NCBI RefSeq assembly: GCF_000746525.1
Contig: NZ_CP009048.1
Coordinates: 4,095,501-4,159,500, forward strand
Length of the DNA stretch: 64,000 nt
Direction of reading: 5' to 3'
DNA from: Pseudomonas alkylphenolica
GTDB lineage: Bacteria; Pseudomonadota; Gammaproteobacteria; Pseudomonadales; Pseudomonadaceae
Shown here piece after piece: positions 8,746 through 28,250 of the stretch. The notes beneath the pieces are model-generated. The model did no database searches, had not been told where the DNA came from, and saw nothing but the letters and a program-made list of their open reading frames with translations. Position 1 is the first letter of the stretch. Each line of letters begins with the position of its first letter. A program made the position numbers and the translations under genes.

Positions 8746-8761
8746 TGCAAGAAGCTTTCCA
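8746..8761 (-). promoter_or_regulatory. Candidate sigma-54 promoter of flhA
   Basis: On the minus strand the sequence reads TGGAAA-GCTTC-TTGCA. The invariant GG and GC dinucleotides are at sigma-54 spacing, although the -24 box is AAA where CAC is usual. It lies about 65 bases upstream of the flhA GTG and after the REP palindrome. Confidence 0.6.
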
Positions 8762-18331: not shown

Positions 18332-18784
18332 TCAATAGCGATCATGCCGCGGCAGGCGCTGGGACAATTCATCGAGCAGTTTTTGCTCGCGCTTGTCTTC
18401 GATCATCCGTGCTTCGTCGATATAACGCTGGACCAGCTTGCGCAGCCCTTCGACCCGGGCATAGGCCTGCTGCCAGGTGCCACGGGCGTTGTTGAGGTTG
18501 TTCTGGTGCCAGGCCAGACTCTGGCGCTGCTGGGTCATGGCGCTCTCCAGTTGCCCGAGAAAGCGCTGATAGTTGACCAGCCAGCTACCGGACACACCCT
18601 GCCCGCCGCGGTCGATCCATTGCAGCTGGTAGTCTTCACGAAAGCGGTCGAGCTCGGCGAGCTTGGCCTGCGCCAGATTCACCTGTTGCTGGAACTGCCC
18701 CAGGCGCTGAGCAGCCTGACGCTCGGCATTTTCGGCCATCTCCACCACAGGGGTCAGACGCGCGGCACGACTGGGCTGGGCCAT
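18332..18784 (-). CDS. fliJ: FliJ export chaperone / coiled-coil protein
   Basis: 150-residue, almost wholly helical protein with coiled-coil character (AERQAAQRLGQFQQQVNLAQAKLAEL...), the usual size for FliJ. It links the FliI ATPase ring to the FlhA gate. It begins six bases after fliI, last in fliEFGHIJ. Confidence 0.94.
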   Translation of the reverse strand: MAQPSRAARLTPVVEMAENAERQAAQRLGQFQQQVNLAQAKLAELDRFREDYQLQWIDRGGQGVSGSWLVNYQRFLGQLESAMTQQRQSLAWHQNNLNNARGTWQQAYARVEGLRKLVQRYIDEARMIEDKREQKLLDELSQRLPRHDRY

Positions 18785-18790
18785 GGCCTA

Positions 18791-20155
18791 TCAGCCTGCG
18801 TCGGATTTAGGCTGGGCGAACACGCTACCGAGGTGTTCACGACTCTGCTGCATACCCACATTGTCGTTCAGGCCCTGACGCAGGAAATGCACCAGTTTTG
18901 GTTGCAGCGCGATGGCCAGGTCAGTTTCGGCATCACCACCGGCCACGTAAGCGCCAACGCTGATCAGGTCACGGCTCTGCGACAGGCGCGACCACAGCTG
19001 CTTGAACTGTTGCGCCTCGCGCATCTGCTCAGGACTGACCACCTGAGGCATGACCCGACTGATCGAGGCCTCGATATCGATGGCCGGGTAATGCCCTTCT
19101 TCAGCCAGGCGCCGCGACAGCACGATATGCCCATCGAGCACACCGCGCGCCGAGTCGGCGATCGGGTCCTGCTGGTCGTCACCCTCAGACAGCACGGTAT
19201 AGAACGCAGTAATCGAACCCCCGCCTGCTTCGCCATTACCGGCTCGCTCCACCAGCTTGGGCAGCTTGGCAAACACCGAGGGCGGATAACCCTTGGTCGC
19301 TGGCGGTTCGCCGATGGCCAGGGCGATTTCCCGCTGGGCCTGGGCGAAACGGGTCAGCGAATCCATCAACAACAGGACGTTCTTGCCCTTGTCGCGAAAG
19401 TATTCGGCAATCCGCGTGCAATACATGGCGGCACGCAGGCGCATCAACGGCGCATCGTCAGCTGGCGATGCCACGACTACCGAGCGCTTGAGGCCCTCGG
19501 TGCCGAGAATATGCTCAATGAACTCCTTGACCTCACGGCCCCGCTCGCCGATCAGGCCGACCACGATGATGTCGGCCTCGGTGAAGCGGGTCATCATCCC
19601 CAGCAGCACACTCTTACCCACGCCGGTACCGGCGAACAGGCCCAGGCGCTGGCCACGACCTACGGTCAACAAGCCGTTGATGCTGCGGATACCGACATCC
19701 AGCGGCACACTGATCGGGTCGCGATTGAGCGGGTTGATGGTCGGGCCATCCATCGGCACCCAGTCTTCGGCCTTCATCCCGCCCTTGCCATCCAGCGCCC
19801 GGCCAGCACCGTCGAGGACCCTACCGAGCATGCTCATGCCCATCGGCAGGCGGCCGTTGTCAGCCAAGGGCACGACCCGTGCTCCAGGCGCGATCCCGGC
19901 GACACTGCCGACCGGCATAAGGAACACTTTGCTGCCGGCGAAGCCCATGACTTCCGCCTCGACCCGCACCGGGTGGTAGCTGTCGTCGTTGATCACCACG
20001 CAGCGGCTGCCAATCGCAGCACGCAGGCCTTCGGCCTCCAGGGTCAAGCCGACCATGCGCAGCAGGCGGCCCTCGACGACGGGCTGGGCAGGCAGCTTTA
20101 CGGTGTCGGCATAGGTGCCCAGGCGCTTGCCGAAACTGGTGCGTTCAAGGCGCAT
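18791..20155 (-). CDS. fliI: FliI flagellar export ATPase
   Basis: Hexameric ATPase that energises substrate unfolding for export. The 454 residues have a Walker A motif [14 protein letters not shown] (about 172-185), the F1-beta-like signature with ERGREVKEF, Walker [14 protein letters not shown], and an ATPase signature around [12 protein letters not shown]. It overlaps the end of fliH by 11 bases. Confidence 0.97.
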
Positions 20156-20906
20156 GGGTGTCGTCCAGATCGACCGTCAGATCAGGCGCTGCAGGATGCA
20201 GGCCCTGGTCATGCAACTGATCGAACAGTTGCGCCAAGGCCTTGTCGATACGGGTTTCCATGGTCGCATCGATGCGGCTATGGTCGGTTTCGATTCGGCA
20301 GCCACCCGGCAGCAGCGCCTCGTCTTCGAGCAGTTTCCAGCGCTCTTCGTGACGCTCGCGCAAGGCCTTGGCCTGCTCGAAGTCCTGCGGGTTGATATGA
20401 ATACGGATGTTGTCAGCGCCCATGGGCAGCAGCTTCAGAGCTTCGCGCAAAACCTGAGCGATCTGGCTGGAGTCACTGCGCAGCTGGCGGCCGATGACTT
20501 CACGGGCCATGTGCGCGACCAGGTTGACCAGGGCTTTCTCGATCTGGCTGTCCTGCTCGGCAATCGGCTCCAGCAGGTTGCCCATCAGCTGTTCGAGGCT
20601 GGCCAGTTTGGCCGCCAACGCGACTTCAGCTTCCTGACGGACCTTGAGCTGGGTGCTGTGGAAGCCTTCACGCTCACCGGTGGCAAAGCCTTCGTTGTAG
20701 GCTTCCTGACGAATGCTTTCGAGCTCTTCGAGGGTCAGTGGCTGGACTTCCTCCAGCGGCACTTCCTCGACTTCTTCCTGAACCACTTCAGGTTCGGGCT
20801 CCGGTTCAGGCTCGGGCTCGGGGTCAAAGCTGGGCAGCGCCCAGCGATTGAAGGCCTCGACTTCAGCGGCGCGAATCAGCTCACTCAGGTGCTCGTTGGT
20901 TGACAT
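20145..20906 (-). CDS. fliH: FliH export ATPase regulator
   Basis: Regulator that holds FliI at the C-ring. The 253 residues begin [22 protein letters not shown]. An acidic Pro-Glu repeat follows (about 28-45, alternating PE), then a helical region with GxxxG-like spacing and a C-terminal V-ATPase E-subunit-like domain (about 115-245). The start is the ATG at 20906. A further ATG four codons upstream is less usual. A REP palindrome separates it from fliG. Confidence 0.95.
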
Positions 20907-20925
20907 GATTGCACGCACTCAAAAA

Positions 20926-20989: not shown

Positions 20990-22009
20990 TTAGATCATCT
21001 CTTCGCCGCCCTTGCCACCGAGCACGATCTCTCCGGCTTCGGCCATACGGCGGGCGATGGTGAGGATTTCCTTTTGCGCCGTCTCGACATCGCTGACCCG
21101 TACCGGCCCTTTGGCCTCAAGGTCGTCGCGCAGCAGTTCCGAGGCACGCTTGGACATGTTCTTGAAGATCTTGTCCTTGACCTTCTCGTCGGCACCCTTG
21201 AGGGACACCACCAGCACGTCGGAGGAGACCTCGCGCAGCAGCGCCTGGATACCGCGGTCGTCGACATCGGCGAGGTTGTTGAAGACGAACATCAAGTCTT
21301 CGATCTGCTCGGAGAGATCGCCATCGATGTCGCGGATCGCGTCCATCAGCTGGCCTTCCACGGAGCTGTCGAGGAAGTTCATGATGTCAGCAGCACGCTT
21401 GATACCACCCAGGGTGGTACGCGCGGCGTTGGAGTTGCCGGAGAACTGTTTCTCGAGGATCTGGTTGAGTTCCTTGAGCGCCGCCGGCTGCACGGTGTTG
21501 AGCGAGGAAACGCGCAGGATGATATCCAGGCGCACCTTGTGGTCGAAGTTGCCCAGCACTTCACCGGCCTGGTCAGGATCCAGGTAAGCCACCACGATGG
21601 CCTGGATCTGCGGGTGTTCATAGCGGATGACGTCAGCCACGGCACGCGGCTCCATCCACTTGAGGCTGTCCAGGCCGCTGGTGTTGCCACCGAGCAGGAT
21701 GCGGTCGATCAGGCCGTTGGCCTTGTCTTCACCCAGGGCCTGGGTGAGCATCTTGCGGATGTAGCCGTCGGAGCCGACACCCAGGCTGGTCTGGTCGCCG
21801 ACGATCTCGACGAACTCGCTCATCACCTGTTCGACCTGCTCGCGATGGACGTTGCCCATCTGCGCCATGGCCACACCGACCCGCTGCACTTCCTTGGGCC
21901 CCATGTGGCGCAATACCTGGGCAGCGTCGGTTTCACCCAGGGACAAGAGCAGGATCGCAGCCTTGTCGACCCGGGTCAGTTTCGCGGTAAGGGCTCGGTT
22001 ATCACTCAT
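20990..22009 (-). CDS. fliG: FliG motor switch protein
   Basis: C-ring protein that contacts stators and carries the torque helix. The 339 residues have N-terminal (FliF-binding), middle (EHPQ motif in YEHPQIQAIVVAYL) and C-terminal domains. The charged torque region near DRGIQALLREVSSDVLVVSLKGADEKVKDKIFKNMSKRA is intact. It overlaps fliF by eight bases. Confidence 0.97.
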   Translation of the reverse strand: MSDNRALTAKLTRVDKAAILLLSLGETDAAQVLRHMGPKEVQRVGVAMAQMGNVHREQVEQVMSEFVEIVGDQTSLGVGSDGYIRKMLTQALGEDKANGLIDRILLGGNTSGLDSLKWMEPRAVADVIRYEHPQIQAIVVAYLDPDQAGEVLGNFDHKVRLDIILRVSSLNTVQPAALKELNQILEKQFSGNSNAARTTLGGIKRAADIMNFLDSSVEGQLMDAIRDIDGDLSEQIEDLMFVFNNLADVDDRGIQALLREVSSDVLVVSLKGADEKVKDKIFKNMSKRASELLRDDLEAKGPVRVSDVETAQKEILTIARRMAEAGEIVLGGKGGEEMI

Positions 22010-23780
22010 CGGCGTTGATCCACTCTTTCACGACCTGGGCCACACGACCCGGATCTTCGGCCACCAGGCTCTTGATTGCGTTGAGCTGCGCGTCGTAGCC
22101 CTCGCTCGGGCTCGGCAGCAGAATGCTTTGCGGACCACCCAGGCTCACGCGGTCGTTGGCCAGATCGCCATCCAGACCGAGCACGCCCAGTTCCATGTCG
22201 CCATCGGCACCGGCGTTTTGCTTGCCATTGCCGGTGATGTTGTTGAGGACCGGACGCAGCACACCGAACACCAGCACGAGGATGAACAGTACACCCATGA
22301 CCTGCTTGATGATGTCCCAGAACCACGGCTGCGAGTAGAACGGAATCTCGGCAATCACCTCGCCACGGTCAGCGGCGAACGGTACGTTGATCACGCTGAC
22401 GCTGTCGCCACGGCTGGCGTCGAAGCCCACCGCGTCCTGCACCAGGCGGGTGAAGCGCGCCAGATCTTCGGCACCCCAGGGGGCACGGGTGCTGTCACCG
22501 GTGGCCGGGTCGATCTTGACCTGATCATCGACCACCACCGCCACCGACAGGCGATTCAGGCGGCCCTGTTGCTGACGGGTATGGCTGATGGAGCGATCCA
22601 GTTCGAAGTTCTTCGTCGACTGCAGGCGTTTGTCCGCAGGATAAGGTGCAAGCATCGGCTGGCCGGTAGCCGGATCCATGATCTGCTGACCATTGGCATC
22701 GAGCAGCGGTTGACCAGGCTGGATGGCCGCCGCGGCGGTTTGTGCGCCACCGGTGGTTTGCGGTGCGGATGCCGGGCCAGGCGGCTGGTTGCTCAGCGCA
22801 CCCGGCACACCTTGTGGACCCATGCTGCTGGAACGTTGTTCATTGACCGACTGCTCGCTGCGCAGCGCCGGCTGATCCGGGTTGAACTGCTCGGAGGTGG
22901 ATTCGACGGCACTGAAATCGACATCGGCCGACACTTCGGCCTTGTAGCGATCATTGCCCAGCACTGGCTGCAGGATGTTATGCACACGCTGGGTAAGCAT
23001 GCCTTCCATGCGCCGACTGTAGTCGAACTGCTTGCCGGCCATGGTCAGTTCGGAGTTGTTGATCTGGTCGGAGAGCAGGTTGCCCTTCTGATCCACCACG
23101 GTGACCTGGGACTTGTCCAGCTCCGGCACACTGGTTGCCACCAGGTTGACAATCGCCATCACCTGGCCGGCTTCCAGGGCGCGGCCCGGATACAGTTCGA
23201 CCAGTACCGAGGCACTCGGCCGACGCTCGTCACGGACGAACACCGAGCTCTTCGGAATCGCCAGGTGCACGCGTGCGGCCTTGACGTTGTTGAGGCTGGA
23301 GACGGTTCGCGCCAGTTCACCTTCAAGACCACGGCGATAACGGGTGGCCTCCATGAACTGACTGGTGCCCAGCCCCTGTTCCTTGTCGAGAATCTCGAAG
23401 CCGACATTACCGTCGCTCGGCGCCACACCGGCGGCGGCCAGTTTCAGGCGGGCACGGGAGAGGTCGTCGGCCTTGACCAGCAAGGCGCCTGAATTGGGTT
23501 CGACGTTGTAGGGAATATCGGCAGCGGCCAGGGTTTCCATGACCTGCTTGGTGTCCATGCCCGCCAGGCTGCCGTACAGCGGACGGTAGTCGGGCTGCTG
23601 CGACCAGAGCACCACGGCAAAGCCGATGGCCACACTCGCGGCCAGACCGACCAGCAGGCCAACCTGCCGCAGCATGGGCATCTGCGAGATGTTTTCCAGG
23701 AACGACATGCCGAACAACGGCGGCTTGGGCGCTGATGCGCTGCCTTTGGCGGGCACGTTATCGACGACTGCTTCGGCCAT
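22002..23780 (-). CDS. fliF: FliF MS-ring protein
   Basis: Forms the membrane-embedded MS ring, the base of the motor. The 592 residues have two transmembrane helices (about 38-58 and 455-475), ring-building motifs between them (RRGLEGELARTVSSLNNVKAARVHLA), and a cytosolic C-terminal FliG-binding tail (SEGYDAQLNAIKSLVAEDPGRVAQVVKEWI). It follows fliE by 15 bases and overlaps fliG. Confidence 0.97.
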   Translation of the reverse strand: MAEAVVDNVPAKGSASAPKPPLFGMSFLENISQMPMLRQVGLLVGLAASVAIGFAVVLWSQQPDYRPLYGSLAGMDTKQVMETLAAADIPYNVEPNSGALLVKADDLSRARLKLAAAGVAPSDGNVGFEILDKEQGLGTSQFMEATRYRRGLEGELARTVSSLNNVKAARVHLAIPKSSVFVRDERRPSASVLVELYPGRALEAGQVMAIVNLVATSVPELDKSQVTVVDQKGNLLSDQINNSELTMAGKQFDYSRRMEGMLTQRVHNILQPVLGNDRYKAEVSADVDFSAVESTSEQFNPDQPALRSEQSVNEQRSSSMGPQGVPGALSNQPPGPASAPQTTGGAQTAAAAIQPGQPLLDANGQQIMDPATGQPMLAPYPADKRLQSTKNFELDRSISHTRQQQGRLNRLSVAVVVDDQVKIDPATGDSTRAPWGAEDLARFTRLVQDAVGFDASRGDSVSVINVPFAADRGEVIAEIPFYSQPWFWDIIKQVMGVLFILVLVFGVLRPVLNNITGNGKQNAGADGDMELGVLGLDGDLANDRVSLGGPQSILLPSPSEGYDAQLNAIKSLVAEDPGRVAQVVKEWINADE

Positions 23781-23795
23781 GACTCAATCTCGCCC

Positions 23796-24122
23796 TTATA
23801 CCGGCATCTGCATGATGTCTTGATAGGCCTGGACCAGCTTGTTACGCACCTGGGTCAAGGCTTGAAAGGATACCGAGGCTTTCTGCGAAGCAATCATCAC
23901 GTCGGTCAGGTCGACCCCGCTCTTGCCGATCTCGAAGGCGTTGGCCAGTTGCGTGGAAGCCTGCTGGGTGTCGCTGACCTTATTGATGGCCTGCCCCAGC
24001 ATGTCGGCAAAATTGCTTGAACCGAGCTCAGGCGCAGCTACCGCTTTCGGCATCGACATAGCGTCCATTTGCATGGCCCGCATGTCCAACATCAATCGAT
24101 TAAACTCAACACCTTGGCTCAT
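23796..24122 (-). CDS. fliE: FliE hook-basal body junction protein
   Basis: Small secreted protein linking the MS ring to the rod, and the first export substrate. The 108 residues start [18 protein letters not shown] and contain the conserved [19 protein letters not shown] and [19 protein letters not shown]. The ATG at 24122 is preceded by GGAGAGAG. The reading frame stays open upstream into the insertion sequence, but that part is transposon-derived and unlike FliE. First gene of fliEFGHIJ. The insertion sequence splits its promoter. Confidence 0.96.
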
Positions 24123-24183
24123 GAACTTCTCTCTCCGACGGCCCGCATTTTTTTGACACTCACGCAGCGGATACGCAGGACTT

Positions 24184-24196
24184 AGCAACAAAAGTG
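24184..24196 (-). promoter_or_regulatory. -12 half of the split sigma-54 promoter of fliE
   Basis: On the minus strand this stretch reads CACTTTTG-TTGCT. TTGCT is the -12 box, about 62 bases from the fliE ATG. The sequence just upstream is now the insertion-sequence end (...ATCCGCA), so the invariant GG of the -24 box is replaced by CA. Confidence 0.75.
24189..24196. repeat. Target-site duplication, left copy
   Basis: CAAAAGTG, identical to 26817-26824 on the other side of the element. An eight-base duplication is within the 4-8 range reported for IS21-family elements. Confidence 0.9.
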
Positions 24197-24198
24197 TG

Positions 24199-24314
24199 CG
24201 GATTCCACGGTCATCTGGCCACCCATTCCATGAGCATCTGACCACCGATTCCACGCTGATCCGGCCACCCATTCCACGCGCATCCGGCCACTGATTCCAC
24301 GGCCATCCGGCCAC
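24199..24314. repeat. Left-end array of IS transposase-binding-like repeats
   Basis: Five imperfect repeats of about 22-24 bases, each of the form ATTCCAyg-n-ATCyGgCCAC, begin at the left tip and run towards istA. Related inverted copies occur at the right end. Multiple terminal repeats of this type are known in IS21-family elements. Confidence 0.8.
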
Positions 24315-24385
24315 TCAACCGGGCAGGCAGCTACGCAGGATTTCTTCACTACCATCGACCTCTTTTTCGAAGCAGAGAGGTCGTC

Positions 24386-25915
24386 GTGGAGCGTTTATCC
24401 ATGCGTAAGATTCGCGAAGTACTACGTCTCAAGTTCGAGGTCGGACTATCAGCTCGCCAGATTGCGGTCAGCGTGCAGGTCGGTCGTGTCACCGTCGGCG
24501 ACTACCTCAATCGTTTTGCCGCCAGTGGTCTCAGTTGGCCCTGTTCGTTGTCCGATGCCGAGTTGGAGCAGCAACTGTTCCCGCCGGCCCCGGCGGTTGC
24601 CAGCGAGAAGCGGCCTTTACCCGATTGGGCATGGGTGCATGCCGAACTGCGCCGCCCCGGGGTGACCCTGGCGCTGCTCTGGCAGGAGTACCGCCTGAGC
24701 CAGCCGCAGGGCTTTCAGTACAGCTGGTTCTGTGAGCACTACCGGGCCTGGCAGGGCAAGCTGGACGTGGTGATGCGTCAGGAGCACCGCGTCGGCGAGA
24801 AGCTGTTCGTCGACTATGCCGGCCAGACGGTGCCGGTTATCGACCGCCACAGCGGCGAGATCCGCCAGGCGCAGGTGTTCGTCGCGGTGCTCGGCGCGTC
24901 CAGCTACACCTTCGCCGAAGCCACCTGGTCGCAGCAGCTGCCGGACTGGCTAGGCTCGCATACCCGTTGCTTCGCCTTCCTCGGCGGCGTGCCGGAGATC
25001 GTGGTGCCGGACAACCTGCGCAGCGCGGTGAGCAAGGCCCATCGTTACGAGCCGGACATCAACCCCAGCTACCGCGACCTTGCCGAGCACTACGGAGTGG
25101 CGGTGGTGCCGGCGCGGGCACGCAAACCGCGCGACAAGGCCAAGGCCGAAGTCGGCGTGCAGGTGGTCGAGCGTTGGATCCTCGCGGCCCTGCGCAACCG
25201 TCAGTTCTTCTCCTTGGACGAACTCAACAGCGCCATCTCCGTGTTGCTGGAGCGGCTCAACCAACGCCCGTTCAAGAAGCTGCCGGGCTCGCGCCAGACG
25301 GCCTTCGACAGCCTGGATCGTCCGGCGCTGCGCCCCCTGCCGGAGCAACCCTACGTCTACGCCGAGTGGAAGAAAGCGCGGGTGCACATCGACTACCACG
25401 TCGAGGTCGATGGGCATTACTACTCGGTGCCGTATCAACTGGTGAAGAAGCAGCTGGAGGTGCGCCTGACGGCGCGCACCGTCGAGTGTTTCCACGCCAA
25501 CCAGCGAGTGGCCAGCCACCTGCGCTCAATGCACAAGGGCCGGCACAGCACGCAGGCCGAGCACATGCCCAAGAGCCATCGCGAGCATGCCGAGTGGACG
25601 CCACAACGGCTGATCCGCTGGGCCGAGCAGACCGGGCCGAACACCGCCGGCGTGATCCGGCACATCCTCGAACGGCGCATCCATCCGCAGCAGGGCTACC
25701 GGGCCTGCCTGGGCATCCTGCGCCTGGGCAAAACCCACGGCGAAGTGCGCCTGGAGTTGGCCTGCCGTCGCGCCATCAGCCTCGGCACGTGCAGCTACAA
25801 GAGCCTCGAATCGATCCTGCGCCAGGGGCTGGAGAACCTGCCGCTGGCCCAGCAGCACCTGCCCCTGCTGCCGGACGACCACGCCAACCTGCGCGGCCCC
25901 GGCTACTACCACTGA
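24386..25915 (+). CDS. istA: IstA transposase of the IS21-family element
   Basis: DDE transposase of 509 residues. It has an N-terminal helix-turn-helix (about 8-45, MRKIREVLRLKFEVG...VGRVTVGDYLNRF) and a retroviral-integrase-type core with D143 (LFVDYAG), D209 (VVPDNLRSAV) and E255 (RDKAKAEVGV), a complete catalytic triad. The C-terminal region binds DNA. The start is GTG at 24386 after AGAGAGG. An in-frame ATG five codons later is an alternative. istB follows 17 bases downstream. Confidence 0.93.
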   Translation: MERLSMRKIREVLRLKFEVGLSARQIAVSVQVGRVTVGDYLNRFAASGLSWPCSLSDAELEQQLFPPAPAVASEKRPLPDWAWVHAELRRPGVTLALLWQEYRLSQPQGFQYSWFCEHYRAWQGKLDVVMRQEHRVGEKLFVDYAGQTVPVIDRHSGEIRQAQVFVAVLGASSYTFAEATWSQQLPDWLGSHTRCFAFLGGVPEIVVPDNLRSAVSKAHRYEPDINPSYRDLAEHYGVAVVPARARKPRDKAKAEVGVQVVERWILAALRNRQFFSLDELNSAISVLLERLNQRPFKKLPGSRQTAFDSLDRPALRPLPEQPYVYAEWKKARVHIDYHVEVDGHYYSVPYQLVKKQLEVRLTARTVECFHANQRVASHLRSMHKGRHSTQAEHMPKSHREHAEWTPQRLIRWAEQTGPNTAGVIRHILERRIHPQQGYRACLGILRLGKTHGEVRLELACRRAISLGTCSYKSLESILRQGLENLPLAQQHLPLLPDDHANLRGPGYYH

Positions 25916-25932
25916 ACACAAGGAATCCCACC

Positions 25933-26688
25933 ATGCTGCCCCATCCGACCCTGGACAAGCTGCAAACCCTGCGCCTGCACGGCATGCTCAAGGCGCTGAA
26001 CGAACAACTGAAAACCCCGGACATCGACAGCCTGAGCTTCGAGGAACGCCTCGGCCTGCTGGTCGACCGCGAGCTGACTGAACGCGACGACAAGCGCCTG
26101 AGCAGCCGCCTGCGCCAGGCCCGGCTCAAGCACAACGCCTGCCTCGAAGACATCGACTACCGCAGCCCGCGCGGGCTGGATAAGGCGCTGATCCTGCAAC
26201 TGAGCGGCGGCCAGTGGCTACGCGACGGCCTCAACCTGATCATCGGCGGCCCCACCGGTGTCGGTAAAACCTGGCTGGCCTGCGCCCTGGCCCACCAGGC
26301 CTGCCGAGAAGGCTACAGCGTGCGTTACCTGCGCTTGCCGCGTTTGCTGGAAGAACTGGGTCTGGCCCATGGCGACGGGCGCTTCGCCAAGCTGATGAGC
26401 AGCTACGCCAAGACCGACCTGCTGATCCTCGATGACTGGGGCTTGGCCCCGTTCACCGCCGAACAGCGGCGCGACATGCTGGAGCTACTGGACGACCGCT
26501 ACGGCCAGCGCTCGACCATCGTTACCAGCCAGATGCCGGTGGACAACTGGCACGAACTGATCGGCGATCCGACCCTGGCCGACGCTATCCTCGACCGCCT
26601 GGTGCACAACGCTTACCGGATCAATCTGAAGGGTGAATCAATGCGCAAACGGACGCAGAAATTGACGACGCCAGCCAACCCGGACTAA
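25933..26688 (+). CDS. istB: IstB ATP-binding transposition helper protein
   Basis: AAA+ ATPase of 251 residues, related to DnaC, that selects targets and activates IstA. Walker A is GGPTGVGKT (105-113), Walker B is LLILDDWG (163-170), and the end has the arginine-rich DRLVHNAYRINLKGESMRKR. The ATG at 25933 follows AAGGA, and the length is normal for the family. It is intact. Confidence 0.94.
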   Translation: MLPHPTLDKLQTLRLHGMLKALNEQLKTPDIDSLSFEERLGLLVDRELTERDDKRLSSRLRQARLKHNACLEDIDYRSPRGLDKALILQLSGGQWLRDGLNLIIGGPTGVGKTWLACALAHQACREGYSVRYLRLPRLLEELGLAHGDGRFAKLMSSYAKTDLLILDDWGLAPFTAEQRRDMLELLDDRYGQRSTIVTSQMPVDNWHELIGDPTLADAILDRLVHNAYRINLKGESMRKRTQKLTTPANPD

Positions 26689-26726
26689 CAATGCCACCCC
26701 TGCGTCGCTGCGCTCCGACTGCCCGG

Positions 26727-26816
26727 CCGGATGGCCGTGGAACAGGTGGCCAGATGGCCCTGGAATGCCTGGCCAGATGAGAGCGGACTGGGTGGCCGGA
26801 TGGCGTGGAATCCGCA
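26727..26816. repeat. Right-end array of IS transposase-binding-like repeats
   Basis: Three to four copies of GTGGCCrGATGgccsTGGAAT-like sequence run to the right tip. They are the inverted counterpart of the left-end array. Confidence 0.75.
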
Positions 26817-26824
26817 CAAAAGTG
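26817..26824. repeat. Target-site duplication, right copy
   Basis: CAAAAGTG, matching 24189-24196 exactly. Confidence 0.9.
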
Positions 26825-26827
26825 CCA
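26817..26827 (-). promoter_or_regulatory. -24 half of the split sigma-54 promoter of fliE
   Basis: The minus strand reads TGGCAC-TTTTG and then runs into the insertion-sequence tip TGCGG. Joined to TTGCT at 24184-24188 it would give TGGCAC-TTTTG-TTGCT, a textbook -24/-12 promoter. In the present sequence the GC after the spacer comes one base too early for a normal -12 box. Confidence 0.75.
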
Positions 26828-26870
26828 GCTATGCGTAAAAGCCGAACAAAAAAACGAATATTCCTACCCT

Positions 26871-28250
26871 TCAACTGGCGTACAGACTGGCCTCGACGTC
26901 CATCCCGGCATCACGCATCTGCGCCAGCTTGTAGCGCAGGGTCCGCGGACTGATGCCCAGGCGCTCAGCCGCTTCCTTGCGCCGTCCGCGCTCGGATCGC
27001 AGGGTATCGATGATCATCTGGAACTCGTGACGGCGCATGTCATCACCCAGACCACCCGGCGCCTCAACCGCCGGCTGCGCTGGCGTTACGCTCAGCGGGG
27101 CGGCGGTAAACATCGGCATGGCACCGGCCAGACAAAAGTCCACCGCTTCGATCACCCCGCCCTGCTGCAGGATCAACGCCCGTTGAATGGCGTTATCCAG
27201 CTCGCGCACGTTACCCGGCCAGGCATACCTCTGCAGGCAAGCTTTGGCCTCAGGCGACAGGCGCACCGGAGCATGCTTCATTTTATTGACGTGACGCGCC
27301 AGCAGGCGCTCGGCCAGCGGCAGAATATCGGCGCTACGCTCGCGCAGCGGTCGCCACGCCAGGGGGAATACCGACAGACGATAGAACAGGTCTTCACGGA
27401 AACGCCCAGCCGCCACCTCGCCCGCCAGATCACGGTTGGTGGTCGCTACGACACGGATATCCAGAGCAATCGGCTTGCGCCCGCCGACCCGCTCCACTTC
27501 CCGCTCCTGCAACACGCGCAGCAGCTTGGCTTGCAGCCCCAAAGGCATTTCCGAGATTTCATCGAGCAGCAGGGTGCCGCCGTCGGCCTGTTCGAACTTG
27601 CCCGCCTGGGCGGCGATGGCGCCGGTGAAAGAGCCCTTCTCGTGACCGAACAGGGTCGCTTCGAGCATGTTGTCTGGAATCGCCGCGCAGTTGATCGCCA
27701 CGAACGGCTGACTGGCCCGGGTTGATTGCTGATGAATGAACCGCGCCAGCACTTCCTTGCCGGTACCCGACTCGCCGGAGATCAACACCGTGGAATCGCT
27801 GCGCGCCACCCGCGTGGCCAGCTCCAGCAATTGCGCACTGGCCGGCTCACAAGCAACCGGGCCCTCATCAGCTACACCGGCGACCACGCCAAGGGCATGG
27901 CGCGCCACCAACTCAAGCAACGCCCGCGGCTCAAACGGCTTGACCAGATAGTCCACCGCGCCTTGACGCATGGCTTCGACCGCACGCTCGACAGCCGCAT
28001 GAGCCGTCATCAACAACACCGGCAATTGCGGCTGGTTCGCACGCAAGCGGGCCAGCAACTGATGCCCATCCATGCCCGGCATATTGACGTCGCTGACCAC
28101 CAGGCTGAACGCCTCTTCAGCCACAGCCTCCAGCGCCTCTTCGGCCGAGCCGACGGCACGATAAGCAAAACCACCCAGTTCCAGGGTATCGCCCAAGGCC
28201 TGACGCAGTGCCCGATCATCCTCGACCAGCAGCACCTTGATTGCCTTCAT
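26871..28250 (-). CDS. fleR: FleR sigma-54-dependent response regulator
   Basis: Two-component activator of class III flagellar genes (basal body, hook, fliE-type operons). The 459 residues have a receiver with D54 (VVSDVNMPG), and an AAA+ domain with Walker A GESGTGKE (about 165-172), the sigma-54 contact loop written GSFTGA, and a [13 protein letters not shown]alker B region. A Fis-type helix-turn-helix is at the end ([20 protein letters not shown]). The ATG overlaps the fleS stop as ATGA. Its stop lies 43 bases from the fliE -24 half-site. Confidence 0.95.

Follow-up and report, generated by a model that had tools for sequence, protein, structure and literature searches.

An IS21-Family Element Lies Between the −24 and −12 Boxes of the Predicted fliEFGHIJ Sigma-54 Promoter of a Pseudomonas Genome

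The Closest Described Systems

Insertion sequences of the IS21 family carry istA followed by istB, end in terminal inverted repeats of the form TG...CA with further repeats inside the ends, and duplicate several base pairs of their target. Sigma-54 promoters follow the −24/−12 consensus TGGCAC-N5-TTGCW, in which GG and GC stand 10 bp apart and are both essential.

The closest described element is ISPpu7/ISS12 of Pseudomonas putida S12, for which the portion of PMC5658596 drawn on throughout this text reports a burst in a laboratory stock and precise excision. An srpA insertion was excised at about 10^-7; all 19 tested colonies were without the element, and 8 were sequenced as restored. The putative promoter on the istA side of ISS12 was inactive, and the one on the istB side was weak, about six times below a reference promoter (PMC5658596).

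As for the affected operon, FleQ works together with RpoN at flagellar operons, with fliE as one of its binding sites in both P. fluorescens F113 and P. putida KT2440, according to the part of PMC6120874 used here. FleQ acting near the promoter at fliE has been reported (PMC6120874; Jyot et al. 2002, by its title), and GTCAaAAAAtTGAC was proposed as a FleQ consensus, which its authors were unable to confirm as a general FleQ site (PMC6120874).

Loss of flagellar motility through a structural genome change has been described for Xanthomonas fuscans 4834-R, one of the naturally non-motile strains whose flagellar clusters carry lesions; from the part of the report cited, the change there is a deletion in the cluster (PMC3826837). 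At the locus analyzed here motility is predicted to be lost too, but the operon retains its coding sequences and only the promoter core is divided. A search by title and abstract start, with most subscription journals outside it, found no published case of a sigma-54 flagellar promoter interrupted by an insertion sequence. Flagellar promoters lost to transposons are nothing out of the ordinary, but a cut placed exactly between −24 and −12 is uncommonly informative, being a clean natural parting of the two boxes with the operon and a putative activator site left in place.

The Inserted Element

The window is the whole stretch of DNA that was analyzed, 64,000 nucleotides long, and positions are counted from its first base. 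The element and its flanks are as follows.

24197 to 26816, plus strand: IS21-family insertion sequence, ISPpu7/ISS12-like, 2620 bp, one of 13 full-length copies in the genome that are 100% identical over this length
24189 to 24196: left copy of the target-site duplication, CAAAAGTG
26817 to 26824: right copy of the target-site duplication, CAAAAGTG
24386 to 25915, plus strand: istA, IS21 transposase, 509 aa (NF033546, 316.7 bits against a cut-off of 160)
25933 to 26688, plus strand: istB, helper ATPase, 251 aa (NF038214, 284.1 bits against a cut-off of 200)

The order istA then istB is that of the IS21 family, with both proteins over the curated cut-off. The termini read TGCGGATTCCAC.../...GTGGAATCCGCA, with TGCGGATTCCAC at one end and its complement at the other, so that TGCGGATTCCACG stands at both tips when read inward. 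Five ATTCCA units at a spacing of exactly 23 bp occupy the left end (24202-24299) and are likely transposase binding repeats. The duplication CAAAAGTG is 8 bp long and perfect on both flanks; duplications of 6-9 bp accompany 12 of the 13 copies in this genome, and one copy (L018) has none. The sequence-only reading had proposed an IS21-family element with an 8-bp duplication, and its placement proved exact to the base.

With the ISPpu7/ISS12 copy on plasmid pTTS12 of P. putida S12 (NZ_CP009975), the element shares 93.7% DNA identity over 2559 bp, and IstA and IstB are 94.8% and 99.2% identical. It is 2620 bp long as against the 2596 bp reported for ISS12, and shares with ISS12 the multicopy burst and the direct repeats, which there are mostly 6-8 bp and without a target consensus (PMC5658596). 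It also resembles the S12 case in that an insertion in srpA switched a phenotype off (PMC5658596), whereas the target is the core of a sigma-54 flagellar promoter here and srpA or srpS there. The last 61 bp (26756-26816) do not align with the pTTS12 copy; the same 61 bp are unaligned in several relatives that are 89-96% identical and whose match ends at 2559, which suggests that the right ends are mosaic or have been exchanged.

The element matches 96 records of the plasmid collection, seven of them at 99% identity or more; these seven are plasmids of 169-468 kb from P. aeruginosa and P. putida, where the annotation names IS1491- or ISPpu7-family elements. A plasmid search with the fliE end of the insertion gave no record among 32 that covers 80% of the query, and the five rows listed match the IS end only. 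Judged by their sequences, the 13 identical copies in the genome are a recent burst. Other copies were seen at an OLD-like ATPase/TOPRIM gene (L164, 5123-6913), beside an HNH-endonuclease frame (L171, 2152-2499), and near the end of a frame for an Lrp/AsnC-type regulator (L174, 5121-5600).

The fliE Promoter With and Without the Element

The insertion lies between fleR and the fliE operon, both of which are on the minus strand.

26871 to 28250, minus strand: fleR, 459 aa, the gene preceding the split promoter; name assigned from its position and from NtrC-type family matches, none shown over its cut-off
26822 to 26827, minus strand: TGGCAC, the −24 box of the fliE sigma-54 promoter, now orphaned
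24184 to 24188, minus strand: TTGCT, the −12 box of the fliE sigma-54 promoter, now orphaned
24144 to 24157, minus strand: FleQ-box-like GTCAAAAAAATGCG in the fliE leader, still joined to fliE; by manual count it agrees with the proposed consensus GTCAaAAAAtTGAC at 11 of 14 letters
23796 to 24122, minus strand: fliE, 108 aa, with which the operon begins, now separated from its promoter (TIGR00205)
22002 to 23780, minus strand: fliF, 592 aa, MS ring, open frame
20990 to 22009, minus strand: fliG, 339 aa, open frame
20145 to 20918, minus strand: fliH, 257 aa, open frame
18791 to 20155, minus strand: fliI, 454 aa, export ATPase, open frame
18332 to 18784, minus strand: fliJ, 150 aa, open frame

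The emptied site was produced by a script that deletes the element and one copy of the duplication. Its minus strand reads TGGCACTTTTGTTGCT, which begins 77 bases ahead of the fliE ATG; GG and GC are 10 bases apart, and the fleR-fliE gap becomes 120 bp. This sequence agrees with the sigma-54 consensus, and the occupied locus departs from it on both sides. On the fliE side the −12 box retains its GC, and the IS tip supplies GCACAC in place of TGGCAC, so that the GG of the −24 box becomes CA; on the far side, GC follows TGGCAC at 9 instead of 10 bases from GG, and any transcript starting there would run into the element. The sequence-only reading had rebuilt TGGCAC-TTTTG-TTGCT on the minus strand, which both the scripted removal and the relatives described below bear out; it had also placed the two boxes correctly, 2.6 kb apart, and recognized the loss of GG at the IS tip.

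The same locus was compared in 109 others, which comprise 103 distinct 300-bp upstream sequences. Eighty of these loci are the best 80 of at least 570 confirmed loci from named GTDB genomes, and the other 29 come from the 30 best FliE matches, own genome included (FliE was found in 51 genomes besides this one). TGGCA-N6-TTGC occurs 69 to 93 bases before fliE in all 109 loci of this selection (the best 80 of at least 570, plus 29), and likewise in 103 of the 103 distinct upstream sequences. The only locus in the comparison without the motif is the occupied one of this genome (L022), and four compared loci (L053, L054, L056 and L067) contain a 16-mer identical to the emptied TGGCACTTTTGTTGCT. 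An element-free relative lacking the rebuilt promoter had been named beforehand as what would speak against the split; there is none among the 109. Of the 12 closest relatives listed, 10 have a fleR-fliE gap of 119 or 120 bp; the gap could be measured at 107 of the 109 loci, with a range of 97 to 366 bp; among the matches listed, FliF is 96-99% identical to that of loci in the P. alkylphenolica/P. donghuensis neighborhood. The emptied site and its spacing thus match those of the compared relatives, like the FleQ/RpoN fliE promoter of Pseudomonas, and unlike that promoter in other Pseudomonas the one here is split by 2.6 kb.

A weight matrix built from the 103 distinct fliE promoter sites scored the emptied site at 35.4 and the two hybrids at 1.9 and 3.5; relatives left out in turn scored between 7.2 and 37.3, with a median of 36.8. 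This contrast shows that the emptied site fits the fliE promoter family well. Use of the matrix as proof that the hybrids are dead was dropped, since it recognizes the fliE site specifically, and five presumed sigma-54 sites of other flagellar operons come out about as low or lower (fleS 3.9, the fliK-position gene −1.4, fliL −1.8, flgB −4.6, flgG −16.2). The case for loss of function is made instead by the missing GG, given that GG and GC are essential in promoters of this class.

The window holds eight matches with at most one mismatch to the sigma-54 consensus when GG and GC are required, and five of them lie 56-71 bases before flagellar start codons (fliK is named by position only, with no family match, and fleS by position and histidine-kinase matches).

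14355: sigma-54-like site ahead of fliL
15839: sigma-54-like site ahead of the fliK-position gene
29529: sigma-54-like site ahead of fleS
58957: sigma-54-like site ahead of flgG
63134: sigma-54-like site ahead of flgB

Besides these, TGGAAAGCTTCTTGCA at 8761 on the minus strand, 79 bases before the flhA start, retains GG and GC and may be a flhA sigma-54 promoter.

The Operon and the Predicted Phenotype

All six genes from fliE to fliJ are recognized over curated cut-offs, and rpoN forms a single open frame (500 aa). The FleQ-box-like GTCAAAAAAATGCG lies downstream of the expected fliE transcript start, and its GTCAAAAA core is present in the leader of 107 of the 109 relatives (the best 80 of at least 570, plus 29); its retention fits the reports of FleQ acting near the fliE promoter.

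Taken together, these data make it highly probable that an ISPpu7/ISS12-type insertion has split the core of the fliEFGHIJ sigma-54 promoter, with loss of transcription from the operon's own promoter and a non-motile strain as the predicted outcome. As the sequence shows, a recently active element has inserted within the 16-bp core, parting the −24 box from the −12 box and leaving an 8-bp duplication. The −24 element now lies 2.6 kb upstream, with CA beside the −12 box where all the compared relatives have GG. Sigma-54 holoenzyme should not bind productively at such a site, despite the intact leader with its FleQ-box-like site, and fliEFGHIJ should not be transcribed from its own promoter. From established flagellar biology, a cell without FliE, the MS ring, FliG, FliH, FliI and FliJ would build no flagellum and would be non-motile. 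The strain is therefore probably unable to swim, although the genes of the operon look intact. The earlier interpretation, that a strain with its fliEFGHIJ promoter split in this way should be non-motile or use a substitute promoter, is supported up to the steps that belong to experiment, and the best reading of the locus is that a recent loss of the FleQ/sigma-54 promoter predicts a non-motile strain unless read-through from fleSR suffices. The literature searched, with the species description (doi 10.1099/ijsem.0.000529) outside it, gave no statement on the motility of the likely source strain.

This reading would offer a one-step, checkable explanation for the predicted phenotype of the sequenced strain. 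Swimmers arising spontaneously could serve as a direct test of the promoter, since precise excision is known for a close relative of the element.

Age of the Insertion

The insertion looks recent, since all six operon frames are open and the 13 full-length copies are identical. It may even be polymorphic in culture, having arisen in the sequenced stock as happened in P. putida S12/A, in which case the species or the wild isolate would be motile; we give this an even chance. In S12/A, 23 of 33 ISS12-type insertions were absent from its earlier sequences (PMC5658596), and PMC5851621, in the part used here, gives the relative P. donghuensis SVBP6 as motile. Given the history of ISS12 in P. putida S12 and the identical, undecayed state of copies and operon frames here, a recent and perhaps culture-born insertion at fliE is plausible. 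Such an origin is compatible with the promoter-split mechanism and limits only its generality, as the sequenced strain may not represent its species.

Ways Around the Split Promoter

The split would matter less if the operon were expressed enough to leave the strain motile or weakly motile, either by fleSR transcripts running on through the element or from a weak promoter within it. This is unlikely, and read-through is the main remaining bypass route. In its favor, fleR, fliE and the old promoter are all on the minus strand, only 120 bp would part the two genes at the emptied locus, and no intrinsic-terminator-like site was found on the minus strand of 23700-27000. Against it, the polymerase would have to cross 2.6 kb of untranslated antisense IS RNA, where Rho would be expected to stop it. 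The fold of the transcript from the IS tip into the leader is unremarkable (z −1.04).

For an internal promoter, the precedent is the weak one measured on the istB side of ISS12 (PMC5658596), but the istB end faces fleR here, and a promoter directed outward there would point away from fliE. On the fliE strand the element holds a few weak sigma-54-like sites: one in istB (25976), near the istB start and 1.85 kb from fliE, retains GG and GC with two mismatches to the consensus, and five further sites retain them with three mismatches. These probably do not act as fliE promoters. A scan of 23700-27000 returned no sigma-70-like site (mean of shuffles 0.3); a looser one of the minus strand at 24122-24500 gave at best 8 of 12 letters, equalled by 267 of 300 mononucleotide shuffles, and the best sigma-28-like site facing fliE had 7 of 12 letters in a scan without shuffle control. 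Simple consensus scans thus point to no convincing substitute promoter facing fliE. A second flagellar system was also sought, and the single-contig genome of 5,764,622 bases gave one FliE match and one FliF match.

Other Insertions of the Element

Two of the 12 other copies were noticed afterwards to break c-di-GMP genes. One (G000:C1:4566505-4569124; L165, 2001-5849) splits the EAL domain of a REC-EAL gene, with profile positions 7-95 on one side of the element and 97-236 on the other. The gene adjoins a hybrid histidine kinase and a LuxR-type response regulator, an arrangement that we take to be RocSAR-like, the REC-EAL protein presumably being a RocR-like c-di-GMP phosphodiesterase. The other (G000:C1:1751152-1753771; L172, 869-5426), which is the copy lacking a target duplication, leaves a CHASE-PAS-GGDEF gene truncated; compared with an 800-aa homologue with the full domain (G007, L177), this gene lacks the second PAS and the first portion of GGDEF, suggesting an IS-linked deletion.

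With the fliE promoter, these hits could mean that selection for a sessile life acted as a filter on the burst, and precise excision, known for a close relative of the element, could turn fliE into a rare reversible motility switch; we regard this as quite improbable.

That the element targets sigma-54 promoters or TGGCAC-like sequences can hardly be credited: TGGCAY lies within 20 bp of the insertion at 3 of 21 collected sites (L009, L012 and L018; the set includes the 8 of 29 genus loci with both ends recognizable), but this count was made only after the fliE site had been seen, L018 has no duplication and its joined sequence is no true empty site, the sites do not otherwise resemble one another, at least three of the other copies are located within genes, and the portion of PMC5658596 drawn on reports no consensus for 33 ISS12-type sites of P. 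putida S12. A target preference for promoters was accordingly set aside, as supported neither by the 21 sites nor by that portion of the report.

Genome-wide, 37 GGDEF and 23 EAL matches were counted, some being pieces of one gene. A further GGDEF domain extends over two frames at G000:C1:4174889-4175346 (profile positions 2-81 and 79-161), perhaps a frameshifted diguanylate cyclase.
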